Made by a program: the position numbers and the translations under genes
Source: Leucothrix mucor DSM 2157
Lineage (GTDB): Bacteria > Pseudomonadota > Gammaproteobacteria > Thiotrichales > Thiotrichaceae
Length of the DNA: 64,000 nt
Assembly: GCF_000419525.1 (NCBI RefSeq)
Contig: NZ_ATTE01000001.1
Coordinates: 1,364,001 to 1,428,000 of the forward strand
Reading direction: 5' to 3'
Shown here: positions 44,364-52,001 of the stretch, one piece after another
Position numbering within the stretch: the stretch's first letter is position 1
Layout: each line of letters opens with the position of its first letter
The notes under the pieces: model-generated
The model's input: the letters and a program-made list of their open reading frames with translations, nothing else
Database searches by the model: none
Told to the model about the DNA's origin: nothing

Positions 44364-45143
44364 TTAAGCGGCAATCAGTGGCGTTAATAATGCGAACAAC
44401 TCAGCTTGAGAGGAAACATTGCATCGTGCATACAGCTGTTTGCGAAAAACGCGGACAGTTTGCCAGCTGATCCCCATTTCTTTGGCGATGGATTTTGAAG
44501 AGTGTCCGCGCAGTAGCAACACCGCGACCTGTGCTTGTCGAGGCGTGATCGAGACTGCATGGCACTTCTTGAGTTTTACAACCAGCATATTGTCGAGGTT
44601 TGGAAATTCTTCCTCGAAATTTAGCCTTAAAAGGTCGAAATGAAGCTCTAGCAGTGAACAGATACACTGAGCCAGTTCGTTTGCTTTTTTCAAAGCGCCT
44701 TTGCCAAACAGGCTTGATGAGGTCTCATCCCGACCTACGCAAACATTGATCGTCCAGCCATTTTTGACATAAGCGATAAAGGCGATTTCATCTACTATCG
44801 ACGTCTTTTTGTAGTATTCATTGAAGTAGCTGGTGGTGTTGAACTTATCGGGAGCGATATCACGTAAGCGATAGGCTCCGGGTGATACTTTGTTTAGATG
44901 AGCGCTGTAAAACGGGTCGAGTACGTATAAAGAAGGAACATATTGGCTCTCTAGGTCAGCATGCACTTTATTTGAACGGCTCGTTCGATTGAGCACTAAA
45001 GGGCGGCTTTCACCGTGGTATCCAATAACTAAAAAATTATCAAAGTCGAAAGCTTCTTCCAGTACGGAATAGAGAGCTTGATAGAATGCATCGGTTCCAA
45101 TTGCCCGTATTGTATTGCCTACCATGTCGTAAGTATTCGTCAT
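44364..45143 (-). CDS. LuxR-family transcriptional regulator
   Basis: A 259-residue regulator. The C-terminal helix-turn-helix reads ITPRQAQVAVLLLRGHSSKS then IAKEMGISWQTVRVFRKQLY. The N-terminal 190 residues hold no receiver domain or clear autoinducer-binding signature; they resemble ligand-binding regions of helix-turn-helix regulators found beside catabolic and transport genes. It is upstream of the APC permease and amidase on the same strand, with 171 bases between, so I infer it controls them. A short palindrome, ACCCCATTGGGGT, lies 29 bases before its start. Confidence 0.88.
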   Translation of the reverse strand: MTNTYDMVGNTIRAIGTDAFYQALYSVLEEAFDFDNFLVIGYHGESRPLVLNRTSRSNKVHADLESQYVPSLYVLDPFYSAHLNKVSPGAYRLRDIAPDKFNTTSYFNEYYKKTSIVDEIAFIAYVKNGWTINVCVGRDETSSSLFGKGALKKANELAQCICSLLELHFDLLRLNFEEEFPNLDNMLVVKLKKCHAVSITPRQAQVAVLLLRGHSSKSIAKEMGISWQTVRVFRKQLYARCNVSSQAELFALLTPLIAA

Positions 45144-45355: not shown

Positions 45356-46450
45356 ATGCGTAAAAAAGCAATACTAATCGGGCTGAGTGCATTACTCATT
45401 AGCACCTTTGCACAGGCCATTCCACCACCTGATGCGGTGATTTCCATCTGGCAATCCTTATTGCAGTTTTTAGGCGTGGCTTCTGTGTTTATCGGTGGCG
45501 CGATATTTAGCATGCGGCAGTTTTTTGGTCATTACATCGTGGGTTGGAAACGGACCGCTTTTTATAGTGCTCTGGCAATTGTCTTTGTAGGCCTTGTCTG
45601 GCTTATGCTCGCGCCTCAGGTGGCCAAAGCAAATACTGCAAACACCTTAGTTCGCGGCGAGCTAATCCCAATCAGCACACTCATCAAACGTGAAGAGAAC
45701 GACTGGATTCGCGAGTGGTTGCTGAAAACTGAACTTGAAATGCAGAAGGAGTTAAACCTTGCCCGTCAAAGCCGAGGGCTGGAGACGCTGAAATTTGGAA
45801 CAGTGCAGTCATTTTCTCCCAAAGCGCTGAATGACTTAATTAATACGCAAAACAAGCATATCTATGTGCTGGATATTCGTGAGGAATATGAGCGCTCGCG
45901 GTTTGGTATTCAGTCGCATGGCGTGGCTCGCTATGGTGATTTGATTAGTAATCTGCTGCCAAAAGATATTCCGGAGGATGCGGTGATTATTGTGCTGTGT
46001 CATTCGGGGCTGCGTGGCTATCTTGGAGCGAGTTTAATCCAAAATATGGGTATTAAGCAGGTGGCTTTTTTACAAGGTGGTTTGTCAGCTTGGAGTAAGC
46101 AGGGTTTTGCGGTTCGGGGTAATCCAGAATACAAGGCCAAGTCGCGTTGGTTGTTGAGCAAGCAAGAAGCTCGTAAAGCGATGGGGATGAAAGTGCAGGT
46201 GGATGCAGAAGGCAGCCAAGCGATTAAGGGCATTCCTAATGTGACCCAACTGCCCTATGAAACGGCTGCGAGTAGTTATTTGAAGCCGGTAATGGCTGCC
46301 TCAAAGCAGCAACCCGTTTTGCTGGCCTGTAATACCTATGGCGGCTGTTTTCACAGTACCAATTTGGCTTGGTTAATTGAGCATAATGGCGGCAAGGTAT
46401 TGGGGGTTTACGATGAAAGCGGCAAGCACATGAGTCAGTTCTTTGACTGA
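45356..46450 (+). CDS. Membrane-anchored tandem rhodanese protein
   Basis: A 364-residue protein. Three hydrophobic segments near the start (about 4-22, 34-52, 62-84) anchor it in the inner membrane. A first rhodanese domain (about 155-255) has IYVLDIREEYERSRFGIQSH and the active loop VLCHSGLRGYLGA with its cysteine. A second, shorter domain (about 260-360) has LLACNTYGGCFHSTNLAWL, a cysteine loop of different shape with two cysteines. Rhodaneses move sulfur or bind phosphorylated groups. The gene overlaps the next by eight bases, so this protein and the dikinase-like phosphotransferase are made together. The pairing is unfamiliar to me. Confidence 0.85.
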   Translation: MRKKAILIGLSALLISTFAQAIPPPDAVISIWQSLLQFLGVASVFIGGAIFSMRQFFGHYIVGWKRTAFYSALAIVFVGLVWLMLAPQVAKANTANTLVRGELIPISTLIKREENDWIREWLLKTELEMQKELNLARQSRGLETLKFGTVQSFSPKALNDLINTQNKHIYVLDIREEYERSRFGIQSHGVARYGDLISNLLPKDIPEDAVIIVLCHSGLRGYLGASLIQNMGIKQVAFLQGGLSAWSKQGFAVRGNPEYKAKSRWLLSKQEARKAMGMKVQVDAEGSQAIKGIPNVTQLPYETAASSYLKPVMAASKQQPVLLACNTYGGCFHSTNLAWLIEHNGGKVLGVYDESGKHMSQFFD

Positions 46451-48284
46451 GCAGGTCGGTTTACAGGGCGAGCAGTCGGTGCAGGCTAACAGTGTGCCTG
46501 CAAAGTATGCCACGTTGAAGCAGGCTGAGCGTGCGGGCTTAATTGTACCTCGTAGCTTATTGCTTGATGGCGAGCACTCTCAGGCTGATATTGAGCAGTT
46601 TTTGAACGCCTCCGCGGATAGCCGTTTTATTGTGAGAAGTGCGGTTGAGTCAGAAGATAGCAGTGAGCATTCATTGGCCGGGCATTTTTGGAGCTCTGCT
46701 GCGGTAGCGAGAGAGCTTGTTGCAGAGACAGTTATCCAAGCGCAGCAAGCTAATCAGGCAGTGCTCGACTCATTGCAGTCAGCATCACATCCCCAATTGA
46801 TTTTGCAGGAATATATTGAGCATACGGTTGGTGGTGTGTTGTTTAGCCCTTGGAGTTTTTTCACTGACTACGTCTATATTGAATATTCCGATGCAGGAGT
46901 GAAGCGGGTAGTTGAGGGTGGTGCGAGCCATAGTGCCGTGCTCTGCGTTGATGCGCAGTATGTTGATCCTTTGCCTTTGCTTGATGCCTTAAGTCACCTC
47001 AAATCTGAGCTGGCTTTGTTATGCAATCAGTTGCGTGGCATTTATGATTTTCCGGTTGATTGTGAGTGGGCTTATGACAGTCAAAAGCACTGCGTGGTGG
47101 TGCTTCAGGTAAGGCCGCAGACGCATTTTGTTGGGCCAGTGTTACCGTACTCAAAGGCTGATGCGCATTTGCTAAATGATTGGTCTGGGCATGGCATTGA
47201 TCAGGCGATAACGTCAGCTGACTTAAGTGAAGCTTGGCAATTTACGGCACTCTCTGAGAGCTTGGGTCGATTATCTCCACTGTCTTTTAGCTTGCTACAG
47301 CAGCTTTATACCGACTCGATACCCATGCTTCATTTGCTGGGATGGAAAGCGAAAGCAGTCGATTTTATGTGCTATACACCCGATGGGACGGTTTTGGTTG
47401 ACCCTAGCCGCGAGCAATCGTTTTATAAGCTGACGTTATTCGGTGGTTTTCAGCGAGGCATACACCAAGCCAAAATTCAGCAGGAAGCCCAGCGTGCCAT
47501 GAGTGAATACGATCATTCAGCGGCATTTTCTTATGACACACTATTGCAGTTATTCCGTTATTGGATTACGGCGAATATTTGTAGCGCAGGGGCAGGCAGA
47601 GAGAGTTTAGAGGGGAGCTTTGCATCCGACTCGCCACATGCTTACGAGCTGGCTTGGGTGACTGAGTTAGCCATTGAGAAACCCGATAAACTTAGTTCTT
47701 GGAATGAGCTTAATCGCTGGGGTCGGGCGTTGTTTCTATTTGAGTTGAATAAGCTTAAGCGTGAACTGAGGCAAGCCACTCAACAGGCTAATGATAAAAC
47801 AGAGCCGCACAATCCATCCCAGCAAAGTTCAAACGTTGAAAATTACAAATTATTTTGTACTTGGCGTGAGTATCAAGCCGGTGATTATCAATCAGGAAAA
47901 TCAGGACAGCATCAACAAGCCCCTTATGCCTTATACGACTTTGCATTCTTGTCTGCGGATGAGAGCGGTGATATTCAATCACTAGCCTCAAGCAAAACAG
48001 TAGAAGGGCCGGTATATATCATTGAAAACCCTTCTGTGGTTAATGGCATTCCGGCTGATTGCATACTGATCACACCGTATTTTGATAACCGTTGGGTGGG
48101 CTTGATTCGCCACTGTAAGGGTATTGTAGTGACTCGTGGCAGCCGCTTATCACACTCGGCAATTGTCGCCAGAGAGTACGATGTGCCTTACTACGTGATG
48201 CCGCAGTTGAGTTTGGACACGCTGCAAAGCGGCCAACAGATGGTATTGGATTCAGCCGGTTTAAAACCTGCAAAGCCGCCTTAA
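46443..48284 (+). CDS. Dikinase-like phosphotransferase (ATP-grasp plus swivelling-His domain)
   Basis: A 613-residue protein. Residues about 15-230 match the PEP-synthase ATP-grasp domain (GLIVPRSLLLDG, RFIVRSAVESEDSSEHSLAG, CEWAYD, VVLQVRPQT). Residues about 545-605 are a swivelling phosphohistidine domain (TRGSRLSHSAIVAREYDVPY). The usual PEP/pyruvate barrel is missing. About 300 unrecognised residues lie between instead, the order found in rifampin phosphotransferase. So it probably moves a phosphate from ATP through histidine to an unknown acceptor bound by the middle. The start is a TTG inside the end of the rhodanese gene; a GTG about twelve codons later is also possible. Confidence 0.82.
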   Translation: MTEQVGLQGEQSVQANSVPAKYATLKQAERAGLIVPRSLLLDGEHSQADIEQFLNASADSRFIVRSAVESEDSSEHSLAGHFWSSAAVARELVAETVIQAQQANQAVLDSLQSASHPQLILQEYIEHTVGGVLFSPWSFFTDYVYIEYSDAGVKRVVEGGASHSAVLCVDAQYVDPLPLLDALSHLKSELALLCNQLRGIYDFPVDCEWAYDSQKHCVVVLQVRPQTHFVGPVLPYSKADAHLLNDWSGHGIDQAITSADLSEAWQFTALSESLGRLSPLSFSLLQQLYTDSIPMLHLLGWKAKAVDFMCYTPDGTVLVDPSREQSFYKLTLFGGFQRGIHQAKIQQEAQRAMSEYDHSAAFSYDTLLQLFRYWITANICSAGAGRESLEGSFASDSPHAYELAWVTELAIEKPDKLSSWNELNRWGRALFLFELNKLKRELRQATQQANDKTEPHNPSQQSSNVENYKLFCTWREYQAGDYQSGKSGQHQQAPYALYDFAFLSADESGDIQSLASSKTVEGPVYIIENPSVVNGIPADCILITPYFDNRWVGLIRHCKGIVVTRGSRLSHSAIVAREYDVPYYVMPQLSLDTLQSGQQMVLDSAGLKPAKPP

Positions 48285-48376: not shown

Positions 48377-49576
48377 ATGAAAACATTTAAATGTACTTGT
48401 CCAGATGAGCAGATTTTATTTTTTGAAAGCAGCCATTGCCTGGCTTGTGATAGAACAGTGGGGCTTGATGACTGGTTCGATAAAGTAGAGCCGTATAATT
48501 TAGATGAAGAAAGTGGGCACTATTACAAAGACTCGAAGCCAGACGTTCATTATCAAAAATGTGACAACCATGCGGAATACAAAGTCTGTAATGGCATGGT
48601 CAATCTGGATACCTTTGTGCCGGTTGAAGACGAGGATGAAGTGCTGTGTTTCGCCTGCCGCTTTAATAAAACAATTCCAGATCTCACTGTGGTTGAGCAC
48701 ATTCCCTTGTGGAAAAAAATGGAAGTCGCTAAGCGACGCGCTATTTATACGCTGAAAGCATTATCACTGCCGCTGCGCAATTTTAATGAGGATGCGAAGG
48801 GCGGTTTGAGCTTTTCATTTACCACCGATCGTGATGTGAATGATAACTTCATTAGCCGATTAGAAGATCAGGAGCCGGTATTTACCGGTCATAGCAGTGG
48901 CCATATCACCATTAATCTGGCTGAAGCGAATGACGTAGCTCGCTCCCATACCAAGCTGGCCATGGGTGAGCGCTACCGCACTTTGCTGGGGCATTTCCGC
49001 CATGAGCTTGGACATTATTATTTTGAGAAGTTAATTTTAGGTTCGCCTGAAAAGCATGCCCTGTGCAAACAGTATTTTGGTGATGATGAGCTAAGCTACC
49101 AAGATGCGCTGGATCGGCACTATAAAGAGGGTGCACCCAAAAACTGGCGCGAGTCATTTATCAGCGAATACGCCACGATGCACCCTTATGAAGATTGGGC
49201 TGAAACGTGGGCGCATTATATGCACATTATGGATACGCTTGAGACGGCAAAGAACTTTTCGATTACTGGCTCGACGTCCGCCAATGCAGAGGAAACTGAA
49301 GAAGTTGAGGACTTAAGTTTGCCGCAGGATGCTTACTTCTTCTCTGGCCAAACCTCGATCACCAGTATTTTGGATACCTGGATAGACTTCTCGGTGATTC
49401 TGAACTCATTGAACCGCAGTATGGGAATGAATGATGCTTATCCCTTTGTGCTGACTCAGCCAGTGCGTACCAAGCTGTCATTTGTGCACCATGCCATTCA
49501 TGACCGCTTGCATCGTATGCCAAAGTTGACAGCAGCGGAGAGTAAGGTTAAGCCGGAAACAGTTGCTAAGGCTTAA
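48377..49576 (+). CDS. Zinc-ribbon metallopeptidase (DUF2248/Peptidase_Mx type)
   Basis: A 399-residue cytoplasmic protein. The start carries a zinc-ribbon-like set of cysteines (FKCTCPDEQILFFESSHCLAC and later CDNHAEYKVC, CFACRF). The catalytic motif HFRHELGHYYFEKL near residue 210 gives the HExxH-type variant HELGH, with later acidic residues in EDWAETWAHYMH. This order matches the putative zinc-binding metallopeptidase family. Its natural substrate is unknown. The longer open frame begins upstream, but the ATG at 48377 is preferred because the promoter and a poly-T tract lie before it. Confidence 0.88.
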   Translation: MKTFKCTCPDEQILFFESSHCLACDRTVGLDDWFDKVEPYNLDEESGHYYKDSKPDVHYQKCDNHAEYKVCNGMVNLDTFVPVEDEDEVLCFACRFNKTIPDLTVVEHIPLWKKMEVAKRRAIYTLKALSLPLRNFNEDAKGGLSFSFTTDRDVNDNFISRLEDQEPVFTGHSSGHITINLAEANDVARSHTKLAMGERYRTLLGHFRHELGHYYFEKLILGSPEKHALCKQYFGDDELSYQDALDRHYKEGAPKNWRESFISEYATMHPYEDWAETWAHYMHIMDTLETAKNFSITGSTSANAEETEEVEDLSLPQDAYFFSGQTSITSILDTWIDFSVILNSLNRSMGMNDAYPFVLTQPVRTKLSFVHHAIHDRLHRMPKLTAAESKVKPETVAKA

Positions 49577-50030: not shown

Positions 50031-52001
50031 ATGAAGCTAGTTAACCCTAAATCTTCGCGTAAAGCAGCCTATTTTGCGGAATCTAAGCCGACGATTCGTA
50101 AGCGGTTAATGCCCGTTTTATTGATTTTGCTTGCCGCGTTTACGGTCGCTTTTTTGACTGAGGGGATTGTTGCGCTAGATGCCACTGCTCAGCTGCCCAC
50201 TAATTTCGCTTTTTTCATGAAGTGGATCGATGAAGTCATTCTGCTATCAACGATTGCAGGCTTGTGCGTTGGTATTTATCAGTTAAAAAAAGACCGTGTC
50301 CGCTCATCAACCAATTGGCTACTCTTTACCTGCACGGTCAGTATTATTGCACAGGCATTTACCAATGGAGGAATGGGGGAAACTCCGTTAATTATTTATC
50401 CTCTGTTGATTATGACCGCCGGCTTTTTTGCCAATATCCATACCATGGAAGTGGTCGCACGCTCATGCATGGTCAGTATTATTGCGCTTTACCTACTCGG
50501 TGTTTTTGGTATTAAGCCACTGGATTTGAGTGAAAAAGACCCGATCGAGACCTTTATGCGCCTTGATCAGATGATTTACTGCCTACTGATTATGGAAGTG
50601 TGTTTTCGAACCATCAAAATGTTCGTTGATGACTACGGCGCGATTTTGGATCGGGTTAGAAAAGACCGGAAAAAATTAGATTTTATTGCCAACCACGACA
50701 AGCTGACAGGCCTACCGAATCGCCATTCTTGCGAAGCGCATTTTGATGAGTTGTTCCGACTGAGTCCGGCCACTCCTGGCATGAGCCATTTATTGCTGTT
50801 CGTGGATATTGATAACTTTAAAAACATCAATACACGCTTTGGACACAACGGTGGTGATGAAGCACTGTCCACCGTCGCCAGACGCTTGGATCAAGCCTTT
50901 GAAAAAGATAATGCCGTTGTTAGCCGAATTGGCGGTGATGAATTTATTATCATGTTATTTATGCAGGCTGATCAGCTGGAAACCCGTTTGCATGGGATGA
51001 TGAAGCAGCTGGCTGAGCCATTAACTATTTTTGACCAGACCGAATATATTACCTGCTCAATGGGCGTGATCGAGATTAAGAACGATACGTCATCCTTTAA
51101 AGAGGAATATCGCAAAGCCGATATGGCAATGAATCGCGCTAAGAAGACGGGCAAAAACCGTTTCTGTTATTTCAACCAGTCGTTAAATGATACTGCAGTC
51201 AAGAATATTGAACTCGGTGCAGGCTTACATGAAGCCTTAAAGAATGATGAGTTTGTTCTGTTTTACCAACCTCAGGTCGATTTAGCCACCGGTAAAGTGG
51301 TCGGCGCTGAAGCCTTAATTCGTTGGTTCAGACAAGATGGGCAGATGATTTCCCCCGCTGATTTTATTCCGATTGCGGAGAAAAACGGTAGCATTATCGG
51401 CATGACGCTTTGGGTAATTCGCCAGTCTTGTATTGATTGCGCACGCTGGTATGCGGATGGGTTTAAAGACTTATTTGTCAGCGTGAATGTGCCATCGATG
51501 ATGCTGGCTGAAGGAAATTTACCGCAGATTATTCGCGAGGAATGTGCCGCAGTGGGTTTAGACCCTAAGTACCTAGAACTTGAATTAACCGAGTCGGTTA
51601 TTTTAGAAAATGGTGATGATATTCAACGTCAGCTACAAGATATTCGCGATATGGGCGTTAGCTTGGCGATTGATGACTTTGGTACGGGCTACTCAAATCT
51701 TAGCTACTTAAGCCGGTTGAATGTGCAGAAGTTGAAGGTCGATCAGTACTTTGTGATGAACCTGCTGAAGTCAAATTCAGACCGCACAATTGTGCATGCC
51801 ATCACACACATTGCGAGTAGCTTTGGAATGAAAACAGTGGCTGAAGGTGTCGAAGATACTGCGCTGATTAAGCCACTGCTGGATTTACACTGCACCATCG
51901 GGCAAGGTTATTTGTGGTCAAAGCCGGTGCCATTGGATTCATTTATGACGCTGTTAAATGACTACTCACCGACTAAGCAACTGGCTGAAGCCACCGCTTA
52001 G
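50031..52001 (+). CDS. GGDEF-EAL c-di-GMP enzyme with membrane sensor
   Basis: A 656-residue protein with about five or six hydrophobic segments in residues 25-195, a GGDEF domain (about 212-385, motif SRIGGDEF at 298-305) and an EAL domain (about 395-640). EAL catalytic residues are intact: EALIRW (427), ELELTESVI, DDFGTGYSNLSYL, LKVDQYF and AEGVED. The cyclase motif is also intact and lacks the RxxD inhibitory site, so both making and breaking c-di-GMP are possible. In such bifunctional proteins one activity usually dominates, here unknown. It is convergent with ilvY with two bases between stops. Confidence 0.93.
   Translation: MKLVNPKSSRKAAYFAESKPTIRKRLMPVLLILLAAFTVAFLTEGIVALDATAQLPTNFAFFMKWIDEVILLSTIAGLCVGIYQLKKDRVRSSTNWLLFTCTVSIIAQAFTNGGMGETPLIIYPLLIMTAGFFANIHTMEVVARSCMVSIIALYLLGVFGIKPLDLSEKDPIETFMRLDQMIYCLLIMEVCFRTIKMFVDDYGAILDRVRKDRKKLDFIANHDKLTGLPNRHSCEAHFDELFRLSPATPGMSHLLLFVDIDNFKNINTRFGHNGGDEALSTVARRLDQAFEKDNAVVSRIGGDEFIIMLFMQADQLETRLHGMMKQLAEPLTIFDQTEYITCSMGVIEIKNDTSSFKEEYRKADMAMNRAKKTGKNRFCYFNQSLNDTAVKNIELGAGLHEALKNDEFVLFYQPQVDLATGKVVGAEALIRWFRQDGQMISPADFIPIAEKNGSIIGMTLWVIRQSCIDCARWYADGFKDLFVSVNVPSMMLAEGNLPQIIREECAAVGLDPKYLELELTESVILENGDDIQRQLQDIRDMGVSLAIDDFGTGYSNLSYLSRLNVQKLKVDQYFVMNLLKSNSDRTIVHAITHIASSFGMKTVAEGVEDTALIKPLLDLHCTIGQGYLWSKPVPLDSFMTLLNDYSPTKQLAEATA

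Follow-up and report, generated by a model that had tools for sequence, protein, structure and literature searches.

The stretch of DNA analyzed here (the window) comprises 64,000 nucleotides of the genome of Leucothrix mucor DSM 2157 and carries, at positions 45356 to 48284, two overlapping genes that encode a membrane-bound tandem rhodanese (gene 1) and a predicted cytoplasmic phosphotransferase of the dikinase type (gene 2). Comparisons at the sequence level establish the anatomy of both proteins, the conservation of the pair among relatives, the intactness of its catalytic residues and its collinearity with single-chain fusion proteins. The whole is best explained by a single transmembrane module formed by both proteins, with the pair being a split, YidC-less relative of a rhodanese-YidC-dikinase fusion; the chances that this explanation holds are judged to be about even.

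Anatomy of the two genes

Both genes are intact and lie on the forward (+) strand. Open reading frame (ORF) calls place gene 1 (364 amino acids, ATG start) at 45356..46450 and gene 2 (613 amino acids, TTG start) at 46443..48284, with an overlap of 8 bases. Their assignments are based on Pfam and on alignments of homologues, complemented by an AlphaFold model and Foldseek for gene 1 and by NCBIfam for gene 2. The TTG start of gene 2 is plausible, an in-frame GTG at 46479 being the alternative, and promoter and terminator scans gave scores not above those of shuffled sequence.

The gene 1 protein is composed of a basic N-terminus, a hydrophobic stretch, the A-x-A/IPPPD site, two helices, a conserved linker and two rhodanese-type domains. 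Its predicted signal peptide (residues 1-21; 45356..45418) ends in AxA before an invariant IPPPD, an arrangement present in 10 of 10 homologues and mirrored by AIPSPD or AIPSPE in those fusions whose leader was read. Two transmembrane helices, with hydropathy maxima over residues 28-46 and 68-86 and a positively charged loop between them (45437..45613), are predicted from hydropathy and charge and appear in the model as long helices of low confidence. The protein matches the Pfam rhodanese family with 41.8 bits (cut-off 22.2), and domain 1 (residues ~150-252; 45803..46111) combines this PF00581 match with a CxxGxR loop and a Foldseek match. The loop, C215-HSGLRG (45998..46018), contains C215, G218 and R220, which alignment finds invariant in pair and fusion proteins. 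Domain 2 (residues ~257-364; 46124..46447) is divergent and was neither detected by Pfam nor matched to a PDB entry by sequence, but three lines of evidence support its assignment as rhodanese-type, namely, the AlphaFold model, Foldseek hits extending over tandem rhodaneses, and alignment to fusions with two Pfam rhodanese stretches. It bears a two-cysteine loop, C325-NTYGG-C331 (46328..46348), in which C325 and C331-F332 are invariant across 17 proteins, namely, 10 pair proteins and 7 fusions.

Pfam recognized gene 2 through two families, PEP-utilizers at 50.6 bits (cut-off 23.1) and PPDK_N, of which the C-terminal part matches, at 31.4 bits (cut-off 27), with no match to a phosphoenolpyruvate (PEP) barrel family; the protein stops 8 residues past the swivel domain. 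A short ATP-grasp domain (residues 15-228; 46485..47126) is followed by a putative acceptor-binding middle domain (residues 229-515; 47127..47987) of about 290 residues, which matches no Pfam family and features the conserved motifs SES-G-LSPLSF and HAYEL, and by the swivelling phosphohistidine domain (PF00391; residues 516-605; 47988..48257), assigned also by comparison with the structures of PEP synthase and rifampin phosphotransferase (RPH). Alignment and structures identify H571, encoded at 48153..48155, as the catalytic histidine. All 11 pair dikinases share K21, R65, S84, E208, Q222, R224 and H571 without exception and, S84 aside as it was not counted there, so do 7 fusions. In the alignment to RPH, from which the RPH numbering is taken, residues of this set in gene 2 correspond to K22, R117, T136 (a serine in gene 2), E297 and H825. 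Rifampin resistance was abolished when K22, R117 or T136 of RPH was mutated, whereas the E297A variant stayed active (PMC4844700), so that E208 is conserved but not essential by that test. Within the middle domain, E272 and E402 are common to pair and fusions, and E402 forms part of HAYEL, which aligns to DYEL of the fusions. Misannotation of a PEP synthase was considered and rejected, since the barrel is absent and the genome encodes elsewhere a separate 791-amino-acid protein with the same swivel domain.

A preliminary description of this DNA had located the pair and its coordinates correctly. Its membrane protein with two rhodanese domains is borne out by the signal peptide, the two helices and the tandem rhodanese, and the odd two-cysteine loop it pointed to is real, as judged by the invariant residues. 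Pfam likewise confirmed ATP-grasp and swivelling-histidine domains with the PEP barrel missing, and the unrecognized middle of some 300 residues, in an RPH-like domain order, was found at nearly this size. The possible loss of the catalytic histidine among homologues, raised in the same description, was not encountered. Of the tight coupling proposed from the 8-base overlap and the TTG start, the overlap and the coupling stand, but TTG may give way to the GTG.

Conservation of the pair and its fused relatives

The order to which the window belongs was sampled with 63 genomes, all of one family (Thiotrichaceae). The dikinase was detected in 11 of them, and 10 of these 11 also possess a full-length gene 1. 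In each of the 10 genomes with both, including Leucothrix arctica, the genes are adjacent, gene 1 comes first, and the two are separated by a small gap or share a short overlap; the check on co-occurrence suggested in the preliminary description thus found a conserved pair. The flanks of the pairs vary nearly everywhere and include, among others, genes for a halogenase, an RTX protein, a glycosyltransferase, TerD, RtcB and HipA. A third partner gene was sought and rejected, as any one neighbour is common to at most two or three pair loci. In both gene trees, G038 (genus label g7) groups with G049 (g8), the support being 99 percent or more in either tree, and apart from the other g7 genomes, and G015 (g3) groups with g4. 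Furthermore, gene 1 and gene 2 distances correlate (r = 0.84). Trees that match each other against the genus labels, together with correlated distances, argue for inheritance as a unit, and the pair appears to move or be retained as such, with a patchy occurrence. Chance adjacency was rejected on the basis of conserved adjacency amid differing neighbours and of the agreeing trees.

Outside the order, no pair turned up among 369 sampled genomes of the class (searched with gene 2) or 398 of the phylum (searched with gene 1), scoring being limited to the best few candidates in each genome. Viral contigs and phage records yielded no relatives, and plasmids yielded no relative of the pair itself, just shared single domains, along with many copies of the fusion.

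These fusions, detected in further gammaproteobacteria and on plasmids of Roseobacter, are single proteins of 1,340-1,500 residues that contain the parts of the pair in unchanged order, with a YidC insertase domain between the rhodaneses and the dikinase. One is a 1,396-amino-acid ORF of G187, obtained in the class search, with the order rhodanese-rhodanese-YidC core-dikinase (PF00581 twice, PF02096, PF01326 and PF00391) and a leader that ends in AWAIPSPD and resembles that of gene 1. Other examples are WP_014881854.1 of Phaeobacter inhibens (plasmid pPGA1_262), WP_044026578.1 of Ruegeria sp. TM1040, and the proteins of G414 and G254. Like the pair, they have the AIPxPD leader, two transmembrane helices, both cysteine loops (CxxGxR and C-x5-C-F) and the same dikinase order; unlike the pair, in neither gene of which Pfam detected PF02096, they form one polypeptide with an inserted YidC core, a larger, RPH-like middle domain, and binding-protein and sensor neighbours. 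Fusions occur in 4 of the 369 class genomes, counting a degenerate one in G319, and in 17 of 48 genomes of the order of G414, where some are partial and one lies in a complete 7.8 Mb genome. In plasmid records, including that of pPGA1_262 from P. inhibens DSM 17395, the fusion is named just "PEP/pyruvate-binding domain-containing protein".

A profile of gene 1 residues 1-97 retrieves the fusions of G254 (E = 2.5e-13), G414 (2.4e-10) and G187 (2.4e-8), matches the Roseobacter fusions weakly and, at the loci examined, hits zero unrelated ORFs. The full gene 1 profile follows the G414 fusion collinearly through 358 positions (E = 5e-18), and hhalign aligned gene 1 with one fusion over 313 columns. 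For gene 2, the best score outside its own family belongs to a fusion, and one dikinase linked to a DUF3419 domain scores high as well. A common origin of pair and fusion is suggested by the leader, the tandem rhodaneses and the gene order rather than by the dikinase tree. The DUF3419-linked dikinases compared, which do not contain the HAYEL/DYEL motif, belong to a branch in which the enzyme is fused to or adjoins PF11899 (L081:6118-9672 and L041:1-3164), a domain that we take to resemble lipid aminocarboxypropyl transferases.

At 14 of 16 fusion-type loci, the fusion has two neighbours, a binding protein of the PhnD type and a membrane sensor. The resulting three-gene cassette (L079, L080, L088-L090, L093 and L115-L122) is common to Gammaproteobacteria and Roseobacter plasmids. 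The binding protein belongs to PF12974 where tested, and the sensors share one membrane sensory domain, their output, where tested, being a hybrid histidine kinase, with the exception of GGDEF-EAL in G187. G319 (L091:6689-9325) has kept the sensor together with a dikinase remnant devoid of rhodaneses and YidC, in which the catalytic histidine (H to R, LSRGSGIARE) and the ATP-site residues (K to D) are gone; it represents a decayed or pseudoenzyme form. This joint loss, a single case, suggests that the dikinase is not maintained in a functional state without the membrane part.

A putative transmembrane module and its alternatives

As judged by hydropathy and charge, the second helix of gene 1 would, owing to the leader, end on the non-cytoplasmic side, regardless of leader cleavage. 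In YidC, what precedes the conserved core lies in the periplasm, and the tail that follows this core lies in the cytoplasm. Transferred to the fusions, this topology puts the rhodaneses outside and the dikinase inside, independently of the leader argument. The rhodaneses are therefore predicted, with high confidence, to reside at the periplasmic face of the inner membrane and the dikinase in the cytoplasm. Because the membrane would separate the two proteins, a direct sulfur-to-phosphate reaction from one to the other is unlikely, and the sulfur-phosphate group transfer envisaged in the preliminary description is not supported, given the placement predicted from the leader and the YidC-containing fusions.

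In the module, gene 1 would anchor a tandem rhodanese at the periplasmic face, domain 1 having an ordinary sulfur-carrying cysteine loop and the C-x5-C-F loop of domain 2 being able to form a disulfide or hold a persulfide. On the cytoplasmic side, ATP would likely phosphorylate H571 with release of AMP and phosphate, as indicated by the conserved residues, and the histidine domain would then likely swing to the middle domain, where the phosphate would pass to a small molecule, by analogy with RPH, HpeHI and PEP synthase. Such phosphohistidine chemistry is very probable for gene 2. The acceptor is probably a hydrophobic or membrane-associated small molecule. The periplasmic rhodaneses would sense or relay reactive (sulfane) sulfur or the redox state and, by way of the membrane helices, control the kinase step or supply it; this sulfur or redox control is put forward tentatively, on account of the invariant cysteines, the fusion and the sensor neighbours.

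Several enzymes related to gene 2 provide rival explanations. PEP synthase and pyruvate phosphate dikinase (PPDK) likewise have ATP-grasp and phosphohistidine domains, but gene 2 has no PEP barrel and its histidine domain is C-terminal. Its fold and domain order (ATP-grasp, middle, C-terminal swivelling histidine, with equivalent ATP-site residues and histidine) are best matched by RPH, and relatives of this order phosphorylate rifampin (PMC4844700) or, in the form of the split HpeHI, hydroxyphenylethanones (PMC12167813). The dikinase might then phosphorylate an antibiotic or aromatic compound in detoxification or catabolism, with the rhodanese as an accessory. However, RPH is a single soluble enzyme of ~860 amino acids with a different rifampin-binding (RIF) domain and no rhodanese partner; gene 2 has very low scores with the RPH and PigC equivalog models (27.8 bits for RPH against a cut-off of 999), its middle domain is shorter and of different sequence, no resistance or catabolic genes surround the pairs, and a conserved periplasmic tandem rhodanese would have no obvious place in such a reaction. 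The two-component phenolic dikinases HpeHI, CreHI and PpsAB are RPH-related small-molecule dikinases as well (PMC12167813), but they are split between ATP-grasp and swivel, whereas here one gene encodes the whole dikinase and the partner is a rhodanese. A detoxification or catabolic role is thus considered unlikely, and rifamycin inactivation, to which the preliminary description had referred, gains no specific support from the RPH score or the middle domain. Even less can be said for ligation in natural-product synthesis, in which a PigC/RedH-like dikinase would activate a substrate by phosphorylation for condensation. The prodiginine ligases PigC and RedH have related ATP-grasp and swivel domains, their models match the swivel domain of gene 2 and both ends of the fusion dikinase, and in G049 a HapK-like gene (L072:7739-8122) lies a few bases downstream of the dikinase. 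Nevertheless, the scores of gene 2 fall far short of the equivalog thresholds, the HapK match, confined to that genome, is a marginal one of 25.5 bits against a cut-off of 25, and neither a prodiginine cluster nor any other biosynthetic cluster was seen around the other pairs, making this role highly improbable.

The rhodanese half invites comparison with Escherichia coli YibN, a membrane rhodanese that is linked to YidC and has an unusual position of the loop cysteine (PMC12282094), reminiscent of the C-x5-C loop of gene 1. According to work cited in the same paper, YibN is a partner of YidC that alters membrane insertion and lipid production (PMC12282094). An envelope or lipid assembly module, with the rhodanese/YidC part organizing membrane insertion or lipids and the dikinase using a lipid or membrane precursor as its phosphate acceptor, would account for the fusion of rhodanese and YidC in the relatives. 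It is quite unlikely, however, as the pair has no YidC domain and the neighbours of the fusions are sensory rather than involved in envelope assembly. Moreover, YibN has one rhodanese domain, which we take to face the cytoplasm, opposite to the side predicted for gene 1, and it has no dikinase. Finally, the genes may be simply co-transcribed, with proteins that act separately, as their predicted location on opposite sides of the membrane and the retention of the dikinase alone in G027 would allow. Three observations render separate action very unlikely: the fusions unite these parts, identically ordered, in one polypeptide, the pair is co-inherited, and the dikinase has decayed where it lost the rhodanese-YidC part.

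The single transmembrane module is therefore retained as the best explanation, although a number of observations weigh against it. G027 has an intact dikinase and no detectable rhodanese partner, in a fragmented genome. Pair and fusions form sister groups in the dikinase tree with weak support (81/65) and a very long stem. Domain 2 has lost the usual D-x-R motif and may for this reason be structural only. The AlphaFold model of gene 2 is of moderate confidence (predicted local distance difference test score, pLDDT, of 74), and its middle domain is too uncertain for a pocket to be modelled. The binding protein and sensor of the fusion cassette were not seen near the pairs checked, and among relatives the distribution of the sensor domain does not follow that of the pair. 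The cassette sensor was also rejected as a partner acting in trans: among the 63 relatives, strong matches were obtained in G000 and G029, of which G029 lacks the pair and G000 has its copy near transport genes. The literature searched contains no experiment on any pair or fusion member.

The domains are known and the related kind is that of RPH-type small-molecule dikinases, but the joining of rhodanese and dikinase activities is new relative to the literature searched, in which no description was found that unites rhodanese, YidC and dikinase as a pair or fusion; literature searched on the genes of pPGA1_262 does not mention the fusion gene. The statement in the preliminary description that no described system joins both activities holds within this literature, where no match to a known pathway emerged. 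Possibly, the pair and the fusion represent alternative forms of a transmembrane system whose class is undescribed and in which a periplasmic tandem rhodanese controls, across the membrane, a cytoplasmic ATP-to-phosphohistidine dikinase, the fused form being complemented by a binding protein of the PhnD type and by a sensor, either a hybrid kinase or of the cyclic di-GMP type, to give a signalling or metabolite-handling cassette in marine, largely surface-living bacteria. If true, extracytoplasmic sulfur or redox chemistry would be linked to ATP-driven phosphorylation inside the cell, the YidC fold would be used outside general membrane insertion, and the small-molecule dikinases would gain a new branch next to the rifampin and phenol kinases. 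The fused form is located on pPGA1_262, the plasmid that bears the tropodithietic-acid genes in the model strain P. inhibens DSM 17395, and the question is directly testable because gene deletion has been published for this strain (PMC12379602).

Neighbouring genes

No known anti-phage defence model of PADLOC was matched. Directly downstream of the pair, at 48377-49576 of the window, lies a putative zinc metallopeptidase with zinc-ribbon and Peptidase_Mx domains, which is absent from the other pair loci. A GGDEF-EAL protein is encoded at 50031-52001, and its N-terminal region shows no relation to the sensor domain of the fusion cassette. Mutually homologous LuxR-type (GerE) regulators are encoded at 44364-45143 of the window and at L067:2868-3614; they stand beside 2 of the 10 pairs, in differing orientation, and were rejected as part of the module because they adjoin just these two.

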